A DNA stretch of 64,000 nucleotides from Selenomonadaceae bacterium. GTDB taxonomy: Bacteria > Bacillota > Negativicutes > Selenomonadales > Selenomonadaceae. Numbering within the stretch: position 1 is the stretch's first letter; every line of letters begins with the position of its first letter. A program made the position numbers and the translations under genes. Below the pieces are notes generated by a model that searched no databases, was not told where the DNA came from, and saw only the letters and a list, made by a program, of their open reading frames with translations. Where the stretch lies: positions 1 to 64,000 of the forward strand of contig JAFRSO010000076.1 in NCBI GenBank assembly GCA_017427545.1, written 5' to 3'. Positions 2,496-63,980 of this stretch are shown here, piece after piece.

Positions 2496-4384
2496 CCCTT
2501 CGTGAACATGTCGAAGAGAACTTGCGGATCTTTCGTCGTGTAAGCTTTCTGCAAATCTTCCTCGGAATATTCCATTGTAATCGTCGCAAGGTTCGCGATA
2601 ATCGCCAAATGATCATCACCCTTGCCCGCGATACCGACAATCAAGTGCGCGGTGTTCTCGTCGGAGAATTTTACGCCTTGCGGATATTGCATGACGACCA
2701 AACCAGTTTTGATGACGTGCTTTTTAACAGCGTTTTCGCCATGAGGAATCGCAATGCCTTGACCGATATAGGTTGAAATGTCACGTTCGCGAGCCAACAT
2801 GCCCTCGATATATTCCTTTTCAACGTAGCCGCTCTTGAAAAGCAATTCGCCCGCAGCTTTGATGGCCTCTTCCTTAGAAACGGTCTTCAAGCCGACTTTG
2901 ACGTTTTCTTTGAGCAGGACGCCTTCTTTGAGAGTCGGACCGGCTTCTTCTTCAGCACCGCTGGCATCGGGAGCAGGTGCAGAAATTCCGCCGCCCTTAA
3001 GACGTTCGCTGATGACATCATAGACGTTGTTGTTGGTGAAGTCTTTAACCCAAATGTGTTCGGCTTGCGGAGAGTCAGCCCTTGCACGTTCGGCAAGTTT
3101 TTCGTGAGAGACGACGATTTGAGCGTCCTTGGGAATATTGCCGATTGCAAAGTTTTTAACCGTAATATTTTTGTAGCCGTCTTTGTGGAGTTTTTTACGG
3201 AGAGCAGCCGCGCCCAATGCACTTGAACCCATGCCGGCGTCGCAAGCGTAGACGATGAATTTAATGTCCTTGCCTTCGACCTGCTTTTCACCTTCGACAG
3301 CTTGACCCTTCGAGGCCGCCTTCATAGCTTTCATATTGGCTTGAGCCGCTTCGAGAGCATCTTCCTTTTCAGCGTCAGATTTAGCCGTCGCCTTGATGAA
3401 AATTGAACTGACTGCAAAACTTACACCTGCCGCCGCCGCAACTGCCGCAATGTTAGCGAAGTACGCGCCGGGAGCCGTCATAGCCATGATAGCGATAAAT
3501 GAACCGGGAGCTGCCGGAGCTACGAGACCGCCGTTGAGAAGCGTCAAGGTGAAAACGCCGGTTACGCCGCCCGCCATGACTGCAAGAATCAGCGCGGGTT
3601 TCATGAGGACGTAGGGGAAATAAATTTCGTGAATACCGCCGAAGAAGTGAATGATAACTGCGCCGGGGGCAGAACCTTTAGCGTTGCCGACGCCGAAGAG
3701 TGAATATGCAAGCAGTACGCCTAAGCCGGGGCCGGGGTTTGATTCAATCATGAAGAAAACCGATTTGCCGACTTCTTGAGCTTGCTGCATACCGAGGGGA
3801 GTGAATACGCCGTGGTTGATTGCGTTGTTGAGGAACAAAATTTTTGCAGGCTCAACCAGAATTGAAACGAGCGGTAAAAGTCCTGCGCTGACGATTGCAC
3901 CGACTGCCGAGGCAAGTCCGTCCGTGACAGAAGATACAATCGGGCCGACGAATACGACTGCGACGCAAGCCAAGATACCGCCGATAATGCCCGCCGAGAA
4001 GTTGTTGACGAGCATTTCAAAGCCGCCGGGGATTGAGTCTTGAGCGGCCTCATCAAATTTTTTAATCGCGATACCGCCGATAGGACCCATAATCATTGCG
4101 CCCATAAACATCGGGATATCTGTGCCGACGATAATGCCGGCCGTAGCGATTGCACCTACGACACCGCCGCGGTGACCGTTGACGACTTCGCCGCCCGTGA
4201 ATCCGATTAACAGCGGCAAGAGCCATTTTGCCATAGGTCCTACTAATTCCGCCAGAGTCTCATTTGGAATCCAGCCTGCCGGGATAAAGAGTGCTGTGAT
4301 AAAGCCCCAAGCAATGAACGCGCCGATATTTGGCATGACCATTGCGCTTAGGAAGCGACCGAATTTTTGCATCGCCTCTTGCAT
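2492..4384 (-). CDS. mtlA: Mannitol-specific PTS transporter, IICBA fused
   Basis: Membrane transporter that phosphorylates mannitol during uptake. I place the start at ATG 4384 because GGAGGTG lies 6 nt upstream, giving 630 residues. The IIC membrane domain is about residues 1-335 and carries the family motif GGIHEIYFPYV (about 249-259). A flexible Ala/Lys linker leads to IIB with the phospho-Cys motif YACDAGMGSS (Cys381). An Ala/Pro-rich linker then leads to IIA with GQGIAIPHG (His548, phosphoryl acceptor). The order C-B-A and the length match E. coli MtlA, so no separate MtlF is needed. First gene of a minus-strand operon with its own promoter upstream. Confidence 0.95.
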   Translation of the reverse strand: MQEAMQKFGRFLSAMVMPNIGAFIAWGFITALFIPAGWIPNETLAELVGPMAKWLLPLLIGFTGGEVVNGHRGGVVGAIATAGIIVGTDIPMFMGAMIMGPIGGIAIKKFDEAAQDSIPGGFEMLVNNFSAGIIGGILACVAVVFVGPIVSSVTDGLASAVGAIVSAGLLPLVSILVEPAKILFLNNAINHGVFTPLGMQQAQEVGKSVFFMIESNPGPGLGVLLAYSLFGVGNAKGSAPGAVIIHFFGGIHEIYFPYVLMKPALILAVMAGGVTGVFTLTLLNGGLVAPAAPGSFIAIMAMTAPGAYFANIAAVAAAAGVSFAVSSIFIKATAKSDAEKEDALEAAQANMKAMKAASKGQAVEGEKQVEGKDIKFIVYACDAGMGSSALGAAALRKKLHKDGYKNITVKNFAIGNIPKDAQIVVSHEKLAERARADSPQAEHIWVKDFTNNNVYDVISERLKGGGISAPAPDASGAEEEAGPTLKEGVLLKENVKVGLKTVSKEEAIKAAGELLFKSGYVEKEYIEGMLARERDISTYIGQGIAIPHGENAVKKHVIKTGLVVMQYPQGVKFSDENTAHLIVGIAGKGDDHLAIIANLATITMEYSEEDLQKAYTTKDPQVLFDMFTKG

Positions 4385-58494: not shown

Positions 58495-59040
58495 TTATAA
58501 AAGTTTCTCAATATCTTTGGCGATTGAAGCGGGCGTAGTCGTCGGCTCAAAGCGTGCAACAACTTCACCGTCGCGGTTGATTAAAAATTTCGTGAAGTTC
58601 CACTTAATGCCGTCGCCTTCGAGATATTCGGGGAAATTTTTCTGCAGAGCGTCGAGGAGCGGTTTTGCAACGGGGTGATTCATGTCGAAGCCCTCAAACT
58701 TTTTCTGCGCGGTGAGATACTTGAACAGCGGTTGAGCCGTCTCGCCGCGAACGTCGCCCTTGGCAAAAATCGTGAATGTCACGCCGTAATTGAGCTTGCA
58801 GAACTGCTGAACCTCATCATTCGTACCCGGCTCTTGACCGGCAAATTGGTTGCAGGGGAATCCGAGAATTTCAAGCCCTTTATCCTTGTAATCGTCGTAG
58901 AGTTTTTGCAACTCCTTCAGTTGGCTCGTAAATCCGCATTTGCTCGCCGTGTTGACGACCAGCAGAACTTTGCCCTTGTAATCGGCCAGCGATTTATCCT
59001 CGCCGCGTTTAGTCTTGACAGTGAAATCGTAAATACTCAT
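58495..59040 (-). CDS. Glutathione peroxidase-like thiol peroxidase
   Basis: 181 residues. Reduces hydroperoxides with thioredoxin or a similar donor. [18 protein letters not shown] holds the peroxidatic Cys (the Sec place in animal enzymes), [14 protein letters not shown] the Gln and a second Cys, and [20 protein letters not shown] the Trp-Asn pair. It is the last gene of the minus-strand redox operon; with trxB and two glutaredoxin-like genes in front it likely draws electrons from them. Length is normal. Confidence 0.93.
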
Positions 59041-59054
59041 GAAAATTATCCTCC

Positions 59055-59291
59055 TTAAGCCGACGCAAGCAGCTCTTCAATCTTGCGCTTATCGAAGCCG
59101 ACGACGTAATTTTTGCCGTCAATCGTCGTGACGGGAACCGCCAAGTCGCCCGAAATCCTTTTGCACTCGGCGGCAGCCTCTTCGTCAAGTTCAATGTCGC
59201 GCACTTCATATTCCACGCCGCGAGCCTGAAGAAAACGCTTCGTCTTCTGGCAGAAAGGACAATCCTCAAATCCAAATACGGTTACTTTCAT
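59055..59291 (-). CDS. Glutaredoxin-like protein 1 (CPFC)
   Basis: 78 residues. Thioredoxin-fold disulfide reductase with the active site CPFC in [16 protein letters not shown], a cis-Pro in [12 protein letters not shown] and an end [13 protein letters not shown]. It is like small glutaredoxins of the YruB/NrdH kind, which can be reduced by TrxB. Its ATG overlaps the stop of the GIY-YIG gene (ATGA), so translation is probably coupled. It resembles glutaredoxin 2 in the same operon, most clearly around VPVTTID. Confidence 0.9.
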
Positions 59292-60334
59292 AAAAATTCC
59301 TCCTTATACAACAGATATTCTATCGGTTTGTTGAAAATCTCAACGAGTTTGGCTTTGTCTTTCGCCGTAAAATTTTTCTTGCAACGCATTTTACTGGAGA
59401 ATGTCTGCTGTGCTAATCCCATAAGTTCTGCGAGTGACGTGTACGAGAAGCCCTGTTCGATTATTGCGTTGAGTAAATTCTTGAACGGGGTTTGGTGGCG
59501 CCTTGAAAGCCTTGTCGGTAATCCGTCATCACGTGCGAGCAAATACTCTGCGGGCTTATTAAAAAATTCAACGAGTTTGGCGGCTTCAATTTCTGTAAAT
59601 TTCAATTCACCGCGCATTTTGCTAAAAAGGGTGGAATGAGTTAATTTCAGAAGCTTCGCGATATCGGGACCCAATATACTATTTGCATCCATTTCGGCTA
59701 TCAAATTTTTAAACGGACTAAAGCCGCGATATTTCACAGGCAATTTTGCGAAACCTTTCACTCCAGATATCGCTGTCGGCAATCCATCATCGCGTGCCAG
59801 CAAATACTCAGCAGGCAACTCAAAAACTTTAACGAGCTTATCAACATCTTTCGCCGTGAAATTCTTTCTGCCGCGCATTTTTTCGGAAAGCGTTTGCTGT
59901 ATCATCCCCAGCAGTTGCGCGAGTGCAGTACCCGGCATCTGCCTTGCGTCCATTTCGAAACGCAAATTTTTGAACGGGCTATCCTTACGGTGACGCACGG
60001 CGTGGTTAAAGCATTGTTCGGGCGTGCGTTCCAAGCTGCTAGTTCCTTCGCCGCCGTCAGTCAAATTATAACCGTTCGGGCTTTTGGTGTTAAGCAGGAT
60101 GATGAAAAATTTTTCCCACTTGTCCATTTCAGCTTTTGACGCGCAATTTTTTATGACGATACAGCGAAAATTTTCCCAGCCGTACTTGCGAATAGCCGCG
60201 TCCACGCCGACTTTTCTTTTTTTACTGTCGCGTTTATGTTCAGCAATTCGCCTTTTAAAAGCCTGCTTCGTTTGCCCGACGTACATTTTGCCATTAATCG
60301 TGTTGAGCATGTAATAAACTACGCCATAAGCCAT
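59288..60334 (-). CDS. GIY-YIG endonuclease with three helix-turn-helix-like repeats
   Basis: 348 residues. Residues 1-97 are a GIY-YIG nuclease domain: GVVYYMLNTINGKMYVGQT, Arg in FKRRIAEHKRDS, Glu in DKWEKFFI and NGYNLTDGGEG. Then come three similar blocks of about 65-70 residues (about 120-189, 207-276, 282-346), each with PFKNL, a helix-turn-helix-like core (for example LAELMGLAQQTFSSKMR) and FxxPAEYLLARDDGLPT. This is the plan of a free-standing homing-type nuclease: cutter plus DNA reader. It lies between two glutaredoxin genes, 12 nt after one and overlapping the other. Target site unknown. Confidence 0.85.
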   Translation of the reverse strand: MAYGVVYYMLNTINGKMYVGQTKQAFKRRIAEHKRDSKKRKVGVDAAIRKYGWENFRCIVIKNCASKAEMDKWEKFFIILLNTKSPNGYNLTDGGEGTSSLERTPEQCFNHAVRHRKDSPFKNLRFEMDARQMPGTALAQLLGMIQQTLSEKMRGRKNFTAKDVDKLVKVFELPAEYLLARDDGLPTAISGVKGFAKLPVKYRGFSPFKNLIAEMDANSILGPDIAKLLKLTHSTLFSKMRGELKFTEIEAAKLVEFFNKPAEYLLARDDGLPTRLSRRHQTPFKNLLNAIIEQGFSYTSLAELMGLAQQTFSSKMRCKKNFTAKDKAKLVEIFNKPIEYLLYKEEFL

Positions 60335-60346
60335 AAAAATCCCTCA

Positions 60347-60580
60347 TCAAAGGCAAAGCAATTTATCCAACGCCTCTTTGTCGTAGTCGATAACGTAATT
60401 TTCGTTGTCAATCGTCGTGACGGGAACCGCCCAATCCATACCCGTCAACTTCTTGCAAGCTTCACGGGCGGCAGGGTCTTTCTCAAGGTCGAATTCCTCA
60501 AACTCAACGTCTTTGGACTTGAGATATTTTTTCACTTTGGCACAATAGGGACAAGTTGCCGTTGTGTAAACTTTGACCAT
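60347..60580 (-). CDS. Glutaredoxin-like protein 2 (CPYC)
   Basis: 77 residues. Active site CPYC in TTATCPYCAKVKKYLK, cis-Pro in [14 protein letters not shown] and end DYDKEALDKLL. It lies 5 nt after trxB and is likely reduced by it. It shares the VPVTTID-NYV segment with glutaredoxin 1 but differs elsewhere, so the two arose by an old duplication or are distinct family members. Confidence 0.9.
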   Translation of the reverse strand: MVKVYTTATCPYCAKVKKYLKSKDVEFEEFDLEKDPAAREACKKLTGMDWAVPVTTIDNENYVIDYDKEALDKLLCL

Positions 60581-60585
60581 TTCAA

Positions 60586-61515
60586 TCAGCCTTTCAACTT
60601 CGCCAAATATTTTTCCGCCAAAAGTGCTGCAGTAGTGCCGTCGGAAGCGGCAGTCGTCAGCTGGCGAATTTCCTTTTCACGAACGTCACCGGCCGCAAAT
60701 ACTCCGTCAATTTCCGTCCGACAATCTTCGCCCGCAGATATCCGACCGCTTGCCGTCAATGTCAATTCGTCCTTGAAAAGCGCAGTATTCGGTTCGACGC
60801 CGATATTGACAAAAATTCCGTCAATCGCCAGCGTTTTAGTCTCGCCCGATTTTTTGTCGAAGATTTCAACTTCCTCAAGCCTTTTATCGCCGCGCAGAGC
60901 CTTGATCTCGGTTTGAAGCATGATCGTAACTTTGTCGTTGGCGCGAAGTCTTTTCTGCGAAACTTCATCAGCGCGAAATTCCGAACGATGAATCAGATAG
61001 AGTTTCTTGGCGTACTTTGTCAGGAAATTTGCCGCGTCGACAGCAGCATTTCCGCCGCCCATGACAGCGATAATTTTTCCGTCGTAAGCGTGACCATCGC
61101 AAAGCTCGCAGTAGTGGACACCACGTCCGGCAAATTTTTTCTCCTCCGGCAACGGCAACTTCCTGCGATTCATGCCCGACGCGATTATCACAACGTCCGC
61201 CTCATAAATTTTTTCCTGCGTCTCAATAATTTTCGGCGAAGTCTTCAGCGTGACTTTTTCTATCTCGTCGAACTCGTCAATCACCGCGCCGAAATTTTCA
61301 GCCTGCGTCTGAACAGTCGAAATCAAATCGCCGCCCTTTACACTCACGAAGCCGGGATAATTTTCAATGTCCGTCGCATTGGCAATCTGCCCGCCGATAA
61401 TCCCGTTTTCCAAAACCAGCGTGTCAAGATTCATGCGTCCGCAGTAAAGAGCCGCCGTCAATCCAGCCATGCCCGCGCCGATAATCACAACGTCCTTGTG
61501 AAGTCTTTCCTTCAT
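60586..61515 (-). CDS. trxB: Thioredoxin reductase
   Basis: 309 residues from ATG 61515, with GGAGGTGGTGA upstream; the frame is open further up but without a better start. NADPH- and FAD-dependent. FAD loop VVIIGAGMAGLTAALYCGR, redox pair CELC in GVHYCELCDGHAYDG, NADPH loop AVMGGGNAAVDAANFL, and the FAD-binding end GVFAAGDVREKEIRQL. The redox pair is CELC rather than the common CATC. First gene of the operon trxB-grx-nuclease-grx-gpx. Confidence 0.95.
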   Translation of the reverse strand: MKERLHKDVVIIGAGMAGLTAALYCGRMNLDTLVLENGIIGGQIANATDIENYPGFVSVKGGDLISTVQTQAENFGAVIDEFDEIEKVTLKTSPKIIETQEKIYEADVVIIASGMNRRKLPLPEEKKFAGRGVHYCELCDGHAYDGKIIAVMGGGNAAVDAANFLTKYAKKLYLIHRSEFRADEVSQKRLRANDKVTIMLQTEIKALRGDKRLEEVEIFDKKSGETKTLAIDGIFVNIGVEPNTALFKDELTLTASGRISAGEDCRTEIDGVFAAGDVREKEIRQLTTAASDGTTAALLAEKYLAKLKG

Positions 61516-61638: not shown

Positions 61639-61673
61639 CGGCATTGTTATCTTATTGCAAGGAGGTGAGCGGT

Positions 61674-61808
61674 TTGAAGCGGACATTTCAACCGAACACA
61701 CATTGGCGCAAAAAAACTCACGGTTTTCGTGAACGCATGAAGACTAAAGGCGGGCGGCTTGTCATCAAGAGACGCCGTCAGCGTGGCAGGAAAGTGCTTA
61801 CTGCTTGA
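61674..61808 (+). CDS. rpmH: Ribosomal protein L34
   Basis: 44 residues from TTG 61674, with GGAGGTGAG upstream. [20 protein letters not shown], then [19 protein letters not shown] and end VLTA: the standard L34 sequence, very basic. It lies just ahead of rnpA as in nearly all bacteria. Confidence 0.97.
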
Positions 61809-61873
61809 GGGTGTGACAGGTCACTAATCGAAGTGGCCTTTTTTTTAGCTTATCGGCGGGTGGAGGATTGCAA

Positions 61874-62221
61874 GTGTTTACCTTAAGCAAGAGTGAAATT
61901 TTTCGTGACAAACGTGATTTTAATGCGTTGCACTCTCGCGGACGGTCGTTCGCCAATCATGCACTGGTTTTGCTCGTCGTCCACAGTGAACGTTACAACG
62001 GCAAAGTCGGATTTGCGGCGGGCAAAAAATTAGGCGGCGCAGTCGTTCGCAATCGTGTCAAACGTTTGATGCGTGAAGCTTATCGGCTCAACAAAAATTC
62101 TCTCCGCCGTGATTGCGGAATGATTCTTGTCGGGCGAAAGTTTCTTGTCAACGCCAAATTCAAAGACGCTGAAAAAGCTTTCCTCGACCTGTGCAAGCGT
62201 GCCAAACTTTTCAACTCATGA
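61874..62221 (+). CDS. rnpA: Ribonuclease P protein component
   Basis: 115 residues from GTG 61874, chosen because GGTGGAGG ends 7 nt upstream (TTG 61868 is too close). Helps the P RNA process tRNA 5' ends. [20 protein letters not shown] at the start and the RNA-binding signature [19 protein letters not shown] are typical. Its stop overlaps the next start (ATGA). Confidence 0.96.
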
Positions 62222-62427
62222 CAAAATTTTTAATAGCTATCATAAAATTTTATCAACGGTGGTTATCGCCGCTCAAAGCCCCATGCTGTCGATTCGTGCC
62301 GACGTGTTCAAATTATGCCGTCGACGCGCTGAAAAAATACGGCTGGGCGCGTGGAGGATGGTTGACGCTCAAAAGAATTTTGCGTTGCAATCCCTTCAGC
62401 AAAGGCGGCTACGACCCCGTAAAATAG
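62218..62427 (+). CDS. yidD: YidD membrane protein insertion factor
   Basis: 69 residues from ATG 62218, overlapping rnpA by 4 nt. [20 protein letters not shown] at the start, [16 protein letters not shown] with the conserved Cys residues, and [16 protein letters not shown] at the end match YidD. Works with YidC at the membrane; amphipathic N-terminal helix. Confidence 0.95.
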
Positions 62428-62489
62428 TTAGGAGTTAGGAGGTAGGAGTTAAAACCTAATCCCTGTTCCCTAATCCCTGCTCCCTAAAA
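62426..62489. repeat. 7-mer repeat hairpin between yidD and yidC
   Basis: Left GTTAGGAGTTAGGAGGTAG, right CCTAATCCCTGTTCCCTAAT. The arms use different unit types (TTAGGAG and ATTAGGG) and pair only in part. It interrupts an operon that is otherwise tightly packed. Confidence 0.75.
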
Positions 62490-62501
62490 GGAAGTGATTT
62501 T

Positions 62502-63179
62502 TTGGAAGAACCCGGACTTTTTGGCGGAATATTTGAACCGATAGAAAAATTAATGAACGCCGTATTGACCGCGCTCTATTCGCTGACAGAAATGCTCGGC
62601 GTGCCCAGCTACGGTCTGGCGATAATTCTTTTGACGATACTGATTAAAATTTTGGTCTACCCGCTGACGAAAAAACAGCTCCAATCGATGAAGGCCATGC
62701 AACGTATTCAACCGCAAATGAAAAAGTTGCAGGAGAAGTATAAAAATAATCCGCAAGTCATGCAACAAAAATTGATGGAGCTTTATCAAAAAGAGGGCGC
62801 AAATCCCATGTCGGGGTGCTTGCCCATGCTGATTCAAATGCCGATATTGATGGGCATGTATTACACGCTTTACAGCTTCGATTACGGCGGGGCACCTCCG
62901 TCATTTTTGTGGTTGCCGAGTTTATCTGAAACCGACCCGCTGTACATTTTGCCGTTCCTGTCAATGGCGACGACTTTTCTGCAGCAAAAAATGATGTCCA
63001 ACACGAGCGAAGCCAATCAGCAAATGCGCATAATGATGATAGTAATGCCGCTTTTTATCGGCTGGATAAGTTTAAATTTCCCCGCAGGGCTGGTGCTCTA
63101 TTGGGTGACGATGAACGTCGTGCAGATTGTTCAGCAGTGGTGGACGAATAGACAGGACGACGGTAAGGAGGCTGCTTAA
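62502..63179 (+). CDS. yidC: YidC/Oxa1 membrane protein insertase
   Basis: 225 residues from TTG 62502, with AAAGGAAG upstream. Inserts membrane proteins. The first helix region is SYGLAIILLTILIKILVYPL; the cytosolic hairpin is KQLQSMKAMQRIQPQMKKLQ; GCLPMLIQMPILMGMYYTLY and LNFPAGLVLYWVTMNVVQIV are the later helices. The short form without the large periplasmic domain of E. coli is usual for Firmicutes. No lipobox is seen. Confidence 0.95.
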   Translation: MEEPGLFGGIFEPIEKLMNAVLTALYSLTEMLGVPSYGLAIILLTILIKILVYPLTKKQLQSMKAMQRIQPQMKKLQEKYKNNPQVMQQKLMELYQKEGANPMSGCLPMLIQMPILMGMYYTLYSFDYGGAPPSFLWLPSLSETDPLYILPFLSMATTFLQQKMMSNTSEANQQMRIMMIVMPLFIGWISLNFPAGLVLYWVTMNVVQIVQQWWTNRQDDGKEAA

Positions 63180-63980
63180 ATGGCGAATGTGATTGAAAAG
63201 ACCGGCAAGACGGTTGACGATGCAATTAACGCGGCGGCAGAAGAGCTTGGCGTTACGCGTGACGATTTGGACGTTGAAATTTTGGAGATGCCGACTAAAA
63301 GATTATTCGGTTTGTTTGGAGAGACGCCCGCAAAAATTCGCGCTTCAATTAAGGAACTGCCCGTCGTTGCAGAAAAACCTGTCGTTGTCGCAGAACCTGC
63401 AAAAGTTGAAGAACCTGTCGTCGAAGAAGTGCCCGTCGAAGAACCCGCGATTGAACCGATATTGGAGCCGTCACCGGTAGTAGAAGATCCTTCCGAACCT
63501 GAACCTTTTGACCGTGATAAAGTCATTGACGCGGCGGAAGATTTTTTGCACGAGGTCTTTGAGGCGATGAAACTTGATGTTATCATGAAGATTGACGACG
63601 ACCCTGAAGAAGGCTGCCTGATTGAATTGAGCGGCAAAAGTTTGGGCGTTTTAATCGGCAGGCGCGGTCAAGCTCTCGACGCCCTGCAATATCTGCTGAA
63701 TTTGGCGGTCAATCGCAAAAATGCTGACGAGAAAGTTCACTTCATACTTGATGTTGAGGATTATCGCCGTCGCCGCGAAGATACCCTCAAAAAACTTGCA
63801 AAGAGTGTTGCCGAACGTGCGATTAAAACTCGTCGTGATGTTCGCCTTGAGCCGATGAATCGTCATGAACGGAAAATTATTCATACCGTCTTGCAAGATA
63901 ATGATCGCGTCGAAACTCACAGCGCGGGCGAAGAGCCTTATCGTTACGTCATTGTTTCACCCAGGCGCGGCAGAAGATAA
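63180..63980 (+). CDS. jag: Jag (KhpB/EloR-type) RNA-binding protein
   Basis: 266 residues, ATG directly after the yidC stop. A Jag-N domain (VIEKTGKTVDDAINAAAEEL, with FGLFGETPAKIRA), a Val/Glu/Pro-rich linker (about 65-110), a KH-type domain (SGKSLGVLIGRRGQALDALQ) and an R3H domain (ERAIKTRRDVRLEPMNRHER with RxxxH) are all present. Binds RNA and affects cell elongation and division in Gram-positives. Ends 20 nt before the window edge. Confidence 0.95.
   Translation: MANVIEKTGKTVDDAINAAAEELGVTRDDLDVEILEMPTKRLFGLFGETPAKIRASIKELPVVAEKPVVVAEPAKVEEPVVEEVPVEEPAIEPILEPSPVVEDPSEPEPFDRDKVIDAAEDFLHEVFEAMKLDVIMKIDDDPEEGCLIELSGKSLGVLIGRRGQALDALQYLLNLAVNRKNADEKVHFILDVEDYRRRREDTLKKLAKSVAERAIKTRRDVRLEPMNRHERKIIHTVLQDNDRVETHSAGEEPYRYVIVSPRRGRR

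Follow-up and report, generated by a model that had tools for sequence, protein, structure and literature searches.

A free-standing GIY-YIG homing-endonuclease-like gene family beside rewritten gene ends in Selenomonadaceae

The nuclease gene lies within a redox operon

The window, a 64,000-nucleotide stretch of a Selenomonadaceae genome (GCA_017427545.1, contig JAFRSO010000076.1), carries a minus-strand gene cluster with the order trxB-grx1-X-grx2-gpx. Gene X encodes a 348-residue protein, P0001, with a GIY-YIG nuclease domain followed by three helix-turn-helix (HTH) repeats. Its 3' end reaches 4 nt into grx2; the initial annotation had given this gene order and overlap, and both were confirmed with the gene at 59288-60334 (-). 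The end coordinate of that annotation, 61515, is the ATG of trxB. The features are:

58495..59040, minus strand: gpx, glutathione peroxidase-like
59055..59291, minus strand: grx2, downstream neighbour and presumed target gene
59226..59282, minus strand: recoded segment of grx2, residues 4-22, differing from the empty-species consensus KVYSFEGCPWCDKVKKYLK
59288..60334, minus strand: free-standing GIY-YIG homing-endonuclease-like gene X (P0001), 348 aa, ATG start
59292..59306, minus strand: right junction TAAGGAGGAATTTTT, the grx2 Shine-Dalgarno, doubling as the last codons of the nuclease gene
59294..59494, minus strand: HTH repeat 3, residues 281-347
59510..59719, minus strand: HTH repeat 2, residues 206-275
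59771..59983, minus strand: HTH repeat 1 (CI/BetR type), residues 118-188
59984..60046, minus strand: short linker after the GIY-YIG domain, from the family alignment
60047..60334, minus strand: GIY-YIG nuclease domain, residues 1-96
60335..60349, minus strand: left junction, grx1 stop codon and TGAGGGATTTTT, the ribosome-binding region of the nuclease gene
60347..60580, minus strand: grx1, upstream neighbour
60586..61515, minus strand: trxB, thioredoxin reductase, annotated from its ATG

Divergent from trxB, window positions 61670-63980 (+) encode rnpA-, yidD-, yidC- and jag-like genes and an rpmH-like frame that is below the length of the ORF list. The set beside trxB is the usual oriC-near cluster.

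Protein architecture and predicted structure

The GIY-YIG domain of P0001 matches Pfam PF01541 (E 9e-11), and the protein also matches the group I intron endonuclease model TIGR01453 (E 9e-20) and the homing endonuclease family PHROG_314 (E 1e-26). Profile alignment to I-TevI (1ln0/1mk0) indicates that the catalytic Arg (R28/R29), Glu (E74) and Asn (N90) are kept, and these positions fall in invariant columns of the family alignment. The domain that had looked complete at first reading is thus borne out by curated models, catalytic residues and the I-TevI fold described below.

Curated HTH models (Pfam BetR, HTH_3 and Phage_CI_repr) match P0001 as well. The three repeats score 102-112 bits each with an HTH model that was built from the family, so that these scores serve as description only; Pfam and the predicted structure provide the independent evidence. 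The best E-values of the nuclease part and the HTH part are both 1e-10 or lower and are therefore not due to chance. The end PAEYLLARDDGLPT is found in two repeats and the third carries a different 11-residue version, in line with the earlier description of a shared end that is degenerate in the last repeat.

AlphaFold2, supplied with an 18-sequence family alignment, predicted a GIY-YIG fold and three five-helix bundles joined by flexible linkers (mean pLDDT 78.5, pTM 0.32). All three repeats, for which structure prediction had been proposed as a check, are predicted to fold as lambda/CI-type HTH domains. Foldseek aligned the nuclease domain with the catalytic domain of I-TevI (1mk0, 1ln0; probability 1.00, E about 2e-3) and the HTH domains with CI-type repressors (6tri, SinR, DdrO). 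P0001 has no clear NUMODs, and same-site relatives carry NUMOD3-like SPEHCAKIGETLRGVPKT repeats at the position of its linker. In a tree of HTH repeats, repeat 3 clusters with the C-terminal repeats from five other proteins at the grx site.

Occupied and empty grx operons

The grx search covered 66 congeners, from which candidate loci were then fetched. The nuclease gene lies directly before grx2 in 11 species and is absent in 30 with grx2. It follows grx1 in the window genome (G000), G010, G015, G041, G043 and G047, and follows trxB in G053, G054, G011 and G051, where grx1 is absent; in G026 the contig ends upstream of the gene. The usual empty junction reads grx1-TAAGGAGGAATTTTT-ATG, with the same bases directly after grx1. 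The occupied right junction reads ...CTGTTGTATAAGGAGGAATTTTTATG, so that the grx2 Shine-Dalgarno also serves as the final codons of the nuclease gene. Both kinds of junction are intergenic, and no duplicate grx2 start that could represent a displaced native terminus was present in the occupied grx operons.

Occupancy requires at least 8 changes (gains or losses) on the trxB+gpx DNA tree, at least 5 of which are forced by well-supported branches. The copies in G015 and G051 are broken. The comparison of operons with and without the gene that had been suggested therefore returned sporadic occupancy, and the proposal that a mobile gene had entered the operon is well supported by a site that is filled in some congeners and vacant in others, by HTH repeats that do fold as such and by lineages that track sites rather than hosts (see below).

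The empty operon of G045 (L088) has a tandem repeat exactly at the insertion point, in the grx1-grx2 interval at about 2908-3022 (operon orientation). The unit comprises ~85 nt of the grx1 3' end plus TAAGGA, with ~13 nt of filler. It is possibly a repair scar.

The 5' end of grx2 is rewritten in occupied operons

In occupied operons the first ~20 codons of grx2 are rewritten, including the CxxC active site, and the remainder of the gene is normal. Most occupied species have CPFC, CPYC or CGWC in place of the nearly constant CPWC of empty species, which in most of these sits within KVYSFE-CPWC-KVKKYL. CPWC is absent in 8/11 occupied and 4/30 empty alleles (Fisher 6e-4). Amino-acid divergence between occupied alleles and their nearest empty neighbours is 0.41 in the 5' segment and 0.18 in the rest, compared with 0.23 and 0.21 among empty species. 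With neighbours defined by trxB+gpx, the difference in 5' divergence has p = 5e-5, and with neighbours picked by the 3' part of grx2 the same effect has a permutation p of 2e-4; the rewriting was first noticed by eye and the segment was delimited and tested afterwards, so the p-values for rewriting, here and at the other sites, are optimistic. No occupancy effect was detected in the rest of grx2 (p 0.85), nor a significant one at the gpx start (p 0.08).

Measured in nucleotides, the excess divergence drops sharply beyond about 60 nt. Synonymous codon change in occupied alleles is 0.476 in the 5' segment and 0.345 in the rest; the corresponding values in empty alleles are 0.385 and 0.350. Occupied G011 and empty G002 share 93% identity in the 3' part of grx2 and 73% in the 5' part. 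In G010 and G047, both occupied, the 3' parts are 96% identical, yet neither 5' part is one of the three nearest to the other. A single rewritten haplotype that spread with the gene is not supported, as the occupied 5' ends differ among themselves (0.43).

The association has exceptions in both groups. G015, with its broken gene, and G041, with one HTH and a seemingly intact nuclease, retain a near-consensus CPWC start, and G010 has CPWC within a start that is changed elsewhere. G050, G100 and G016 have a rewritten grx2 start yet an empty site, and in the empty G024 the active site alone is changed, to CPYC. When only independent pairs on the tree are counted, 4.2/5 show the effect together with occupancy, too few for 0.05. 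The start of the paralogue grx1 is also unusually divergent in the occupied G010, G015, G043 and G047 (L078, L079, L081, L082); this may be a clade effect and was not used as evidence.

Gene ends at other insertion sites

A similar pattern occurs at ilvN-X-ilvC. Divergence in ilvC codons 2-41 is 0.23 in the 12 species with the gene and 0.04 in the 20 species with adjacent ilvN and ilvC and an empty site (Mann-Whitney p = 2e-4). The changed segment includes the GxGxxG dinucleotide-binding stretch, where GYGSQGHAHA becomes GYGSQGAGQA. Past codon 80 the two groups are nearly level except for codons 100-130 (0.19 vs 0.06). The ilvC start is also changed in several species in which ilvC lies away from ilvN, G000 among them, and is changed in a different way in the adjacent-empty G014, G017 and G036. 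Independent tree pairs give 2.0-2.4/4, in the same direction and too few. In the window genome, ilvC (L203, G000:C53) was not found beside ilvN and has the rewritten 5' end GYGSQGAGQA, and a short GIY-YIG gene (129 aa) lies behind ilvN (L007).

A weak third case is an aldo-keto reductase gene convergent with the nuclease gene, in which the affected region is the 3' part. Both Fe-S Cys motifs are more divergent in 4 occupied species (window p 0.003-0.017), and no difference was seen between the motifs or upstream of them. Rewriting of gene ends was also looked for at the NCS2/PTS site, where none was seen.

A site-specific family in one uncultured genus

The family sits at fixed spots by conserved genes in uncultured gut and rumen Selenomonadaceae. 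The window genome encodes ~11 GIY-YIG genes, about 10 besides P0001, and 47/60 genus genomes first searched have relatives. In a class-wide sample the family profile (E 1e-15) matched 21/25 congeners and 4/275 other genomes, the latter over the first half only. In total the family has ~120 members in ~45 species and ~20 recurrent sites, each found in two or more species by neighbour clustering. These sites include ilvN-ilvC, the interval between an NCS2 permease and PTS genes, ppaC, an aldo-keto reductase and an RND pump. Sites were set by clustering neighbours on greedy ORFs, with gene names outside the window read from translations; the genomes are mostly MAGs, in which contig ends hide some neighbours. 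Among 126 GIY-YIG ORFs in the fetched loci, 58 have no HTH repeat, 34 have one, 25 have two, 8 have three and one has five. The last of these, a 495 aa relative in G053 (L146, G053:C1), is the largest array found.

Site labels on the tree of GIY domains require 38 changes against a shuffled mean of 66 (0/200 as low), whereas host labels require 70 against 72 shuffled. On the HTH-repeat tree, site labels require 29 changes against 68 shuffled. Thus, lineages follow the site across hosts, as those of free-standing homing endonucleases do. Heads and tails of the family proteins recombine: at the grx site, the G053 and G054 proteins have 91% of the final HTH in common but 47% of the GIY domain, and the head of the G053 protein clusters with ilv-site heads.

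Matches in phages and plasmids are below 42% identity among the matches listed and lie mostly in the nuclease part. A phage or plasmid origin of the whole architecture was rejected: just one pair of equal-length Vibrio phage records aligns over 80% of the query, at 26% identity, and alignments beyond this pair cover mainly the GIY part.

HTH arrays and site recognition

Three tandem readers had been suggested to mean a long target or a modular code. Proteins at the same site have from one to three HTH repeats, and at other sites the family relies on NUMOD3-type repeats without any HTH. A site code based on the number of HTH repeats is thereby ruled out, and the three repeats of P0001 do not form a fixed code. 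The data do not single out the tail alone as the site determinant. Tails are much more alike than heads in 20 same-site pairs and the reverse holds in 28, and the AUC difference includes zero. Given this decoupling in both directions, we make no claim that HTH arrays by themselves determine the site.

The recognition site had been tentatively placed at the grx junction. The recognition region is probably not the grx-grx junction as such, because the gene also precedes grx2 without grx1 in four species (a fifth lies at a contig end) and because the segment that varies with occupancy is the first ~60 nt of the grx2 coding sequence.

Comparison with known systems

Most known free-standing homing endonucleases come from phages and organelles, in which their co-conversion shapes the adjacent genes. 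The open-licence papers searched contained no description of the bacterial family analysed here.

GIY-YIG homing endonucleases (the HEase cluster, PMC1564403) have the catalytic Arg, Glu and Asn that P0001 also has, and C-terminal DNA-binding modules that are orthodoxly NUMODs; P0001 has three predicted DNA-binding HTH domains. Occupied and empty versions of one site (here 11 vs 30) and site-specific lineages common to several hosts are further shared features. The changed stretches adjoining the gene in grx2 and ilvC would be consistent with protection of the occupied allele.

The free-standing GIY-YIG enzymes of T4 type (Seg family, intronless homing), as portrayed in PMC2988022, likewise combine a GIY-YIG domain with C-terminal DNA-binding modules and are encoded by stand-alone genes between host genes with present/absent polymorphism. 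Flanking co-conversion around the cut is established for them, and their cleavage sites lie hundreds or thousands of bp from the gene (PMC2988022). Here, in contrast, the changed, target-like stretch directly adjoins the nuclease gene, and the family is chromosomal in bacteria, lies at metabolic genes and bears CI-type HTH arrays.

The mobile endonuclease ORFs of fungal mitochondria, reported in PMC3630166 for Allomyces atp6 and Glomus atp6, atp9, cox2 and nad3 (with Glomus atp9 the GIY-YIG case), also combine an endonuclease gene with a divergent end of the conserved gene that it adjoins. In fungi the foreign end carried by the element is C-terminal, and the displaced native terminus often stays behind as a duplicate (PMC3630166). 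The strong cases here are 5' ends without a duplicate, and the protein architecture and organism differ. The family nevertheless resembles these fungal ORFs.

I-TevI has the same catalytic fold and residues as P0001, but pairs them with a Zn finger, minor-groove helix and HTH instead of CI-type HTH arrays. Unlike group I intron endonucleases, the P0001 gene is not intron-encoded; no intron family was found within the 64-kb window. Each P0001 repeat has the fold of CI/BetR phage repressor HTH domains (TP901-1 CI repressor, SinR, DdrO), which act as the single domain of a dimeric repressor, whereas the family has one to five tandem copies behind a nuclease.

Proposed mechanism and alternative explanations

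We conclude that P0001 is very likely a free-standing mobile homing endonuclease. The HTH array, joined in relatives by NUMOD3 repeats, would direct the I-TevI-like nuclease to conserved coding sequence next to the insertion point. In the grx case this target, in an allele or species without the gene, would be the initial ~60 nt of grx2 with the CxxC codons at its centre. We infer that the nuclease cuts the empty allele there and that recombinational repair templated by an occupied copy leads to insertion of the gene and co-conversion of its flank. Alleles with the gene could survive because their conserved stretch is rewritten, which would confer immunity. The rewritten gene ends are thus, in our somewhat favoured reading, an escape of the target from the resident nuclease or a trace of co-conversion by it.

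A mobile homing endonuclease could also be present while the ends of grx2 and ilvC were reshaped by selection on translation start or mRNA folding, as the insert parts the gene from its old leader and, for example, altered translation coupling could change the first codons. In favour of this explanation, the two strong cases concern 5' ends that immediately follow the insert, and the insert ends on the grx2 Shine-Dalgarno. That Shine-Dalgarno is retained, however, and the changes extend to codon ~22 in grx2 and ~41 in ilvC, go beyond codon choice to nearly invariant active-site and cofactor-binding residues (CPWC to CPFC or CGWC) and, in the weaker aldo-keto reductase case, affect the 3' part of a convergent gene. 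We regard selection of this kind as rather unlikely. Far less probable is a domesticated DNA-binding regulator or nuclease that serves the redox operon, an option raised in the initial annotation: the shared strand, tight spacing, 4-nt overlap with grx2 and CI-type HTH domains typical of regulators would suit it, but most congeners have the operon without the gene, paralogues adjoin unrelated genes and the catalytic residues are intact. Sporadic presence and the broken copies in G015 and G051 leave domestication unsupported. An anti-phage or addiction element has, at most, a marginally smaller chance than domestication; weak matches to HTH and homing-endonuclease models of a defence library point toward it, but these concern only generic HTH and GIY-YIG parts, there is no partner gene and the distribution follows the insertion site.

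With homing as the preferred reading, the rewritten grx2 start beside the nuclease gene in occupied operons is the new observation. If the grx2 and ilvC ends reflect target escape, selfish endonucleases alter conserved active-site residues of housekeeping enzymes. We tentatively raise the possibility, which we consider somewhat doubtful, of a genus-wide cleave-and-replace system in bacterial chromosomes, in which dozens of lineages would each be aimed by an exchangeable HTH/NUMOD array at the active-site codons in a single conserved housekeeping gene and be inherited together with a rewritten, resistant end of it; selfish genes would then drive repeated rewriting of enzyme active sites. Within a single uncultured genus of bacteria the family is now widespread on the chromosomes, with up to ten or more copies per genome and repeated presence and absence at metabolic operons. 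Its many same-site and different-site proteins provide natural material on how HTH arrays set a nuclease address.

Some relatives are joined to other coding sequences. In the window genome, a pyrF-like gene is followed by a GIY-YIG gene in one frame with a pyrE-like gene, giving a putative 447 aa nuclease-PyrE fusion (L012, G000:C82), and a GIY-YIG domain is fused in frame to a GntR-type-like regulator (337 aa; L010, G000:C8). In G002 (L035, G002:C144; also G011:C44), a GIY-YIG gene and an alpha-galactosidase-like gene share one open frame of 1013 aa.
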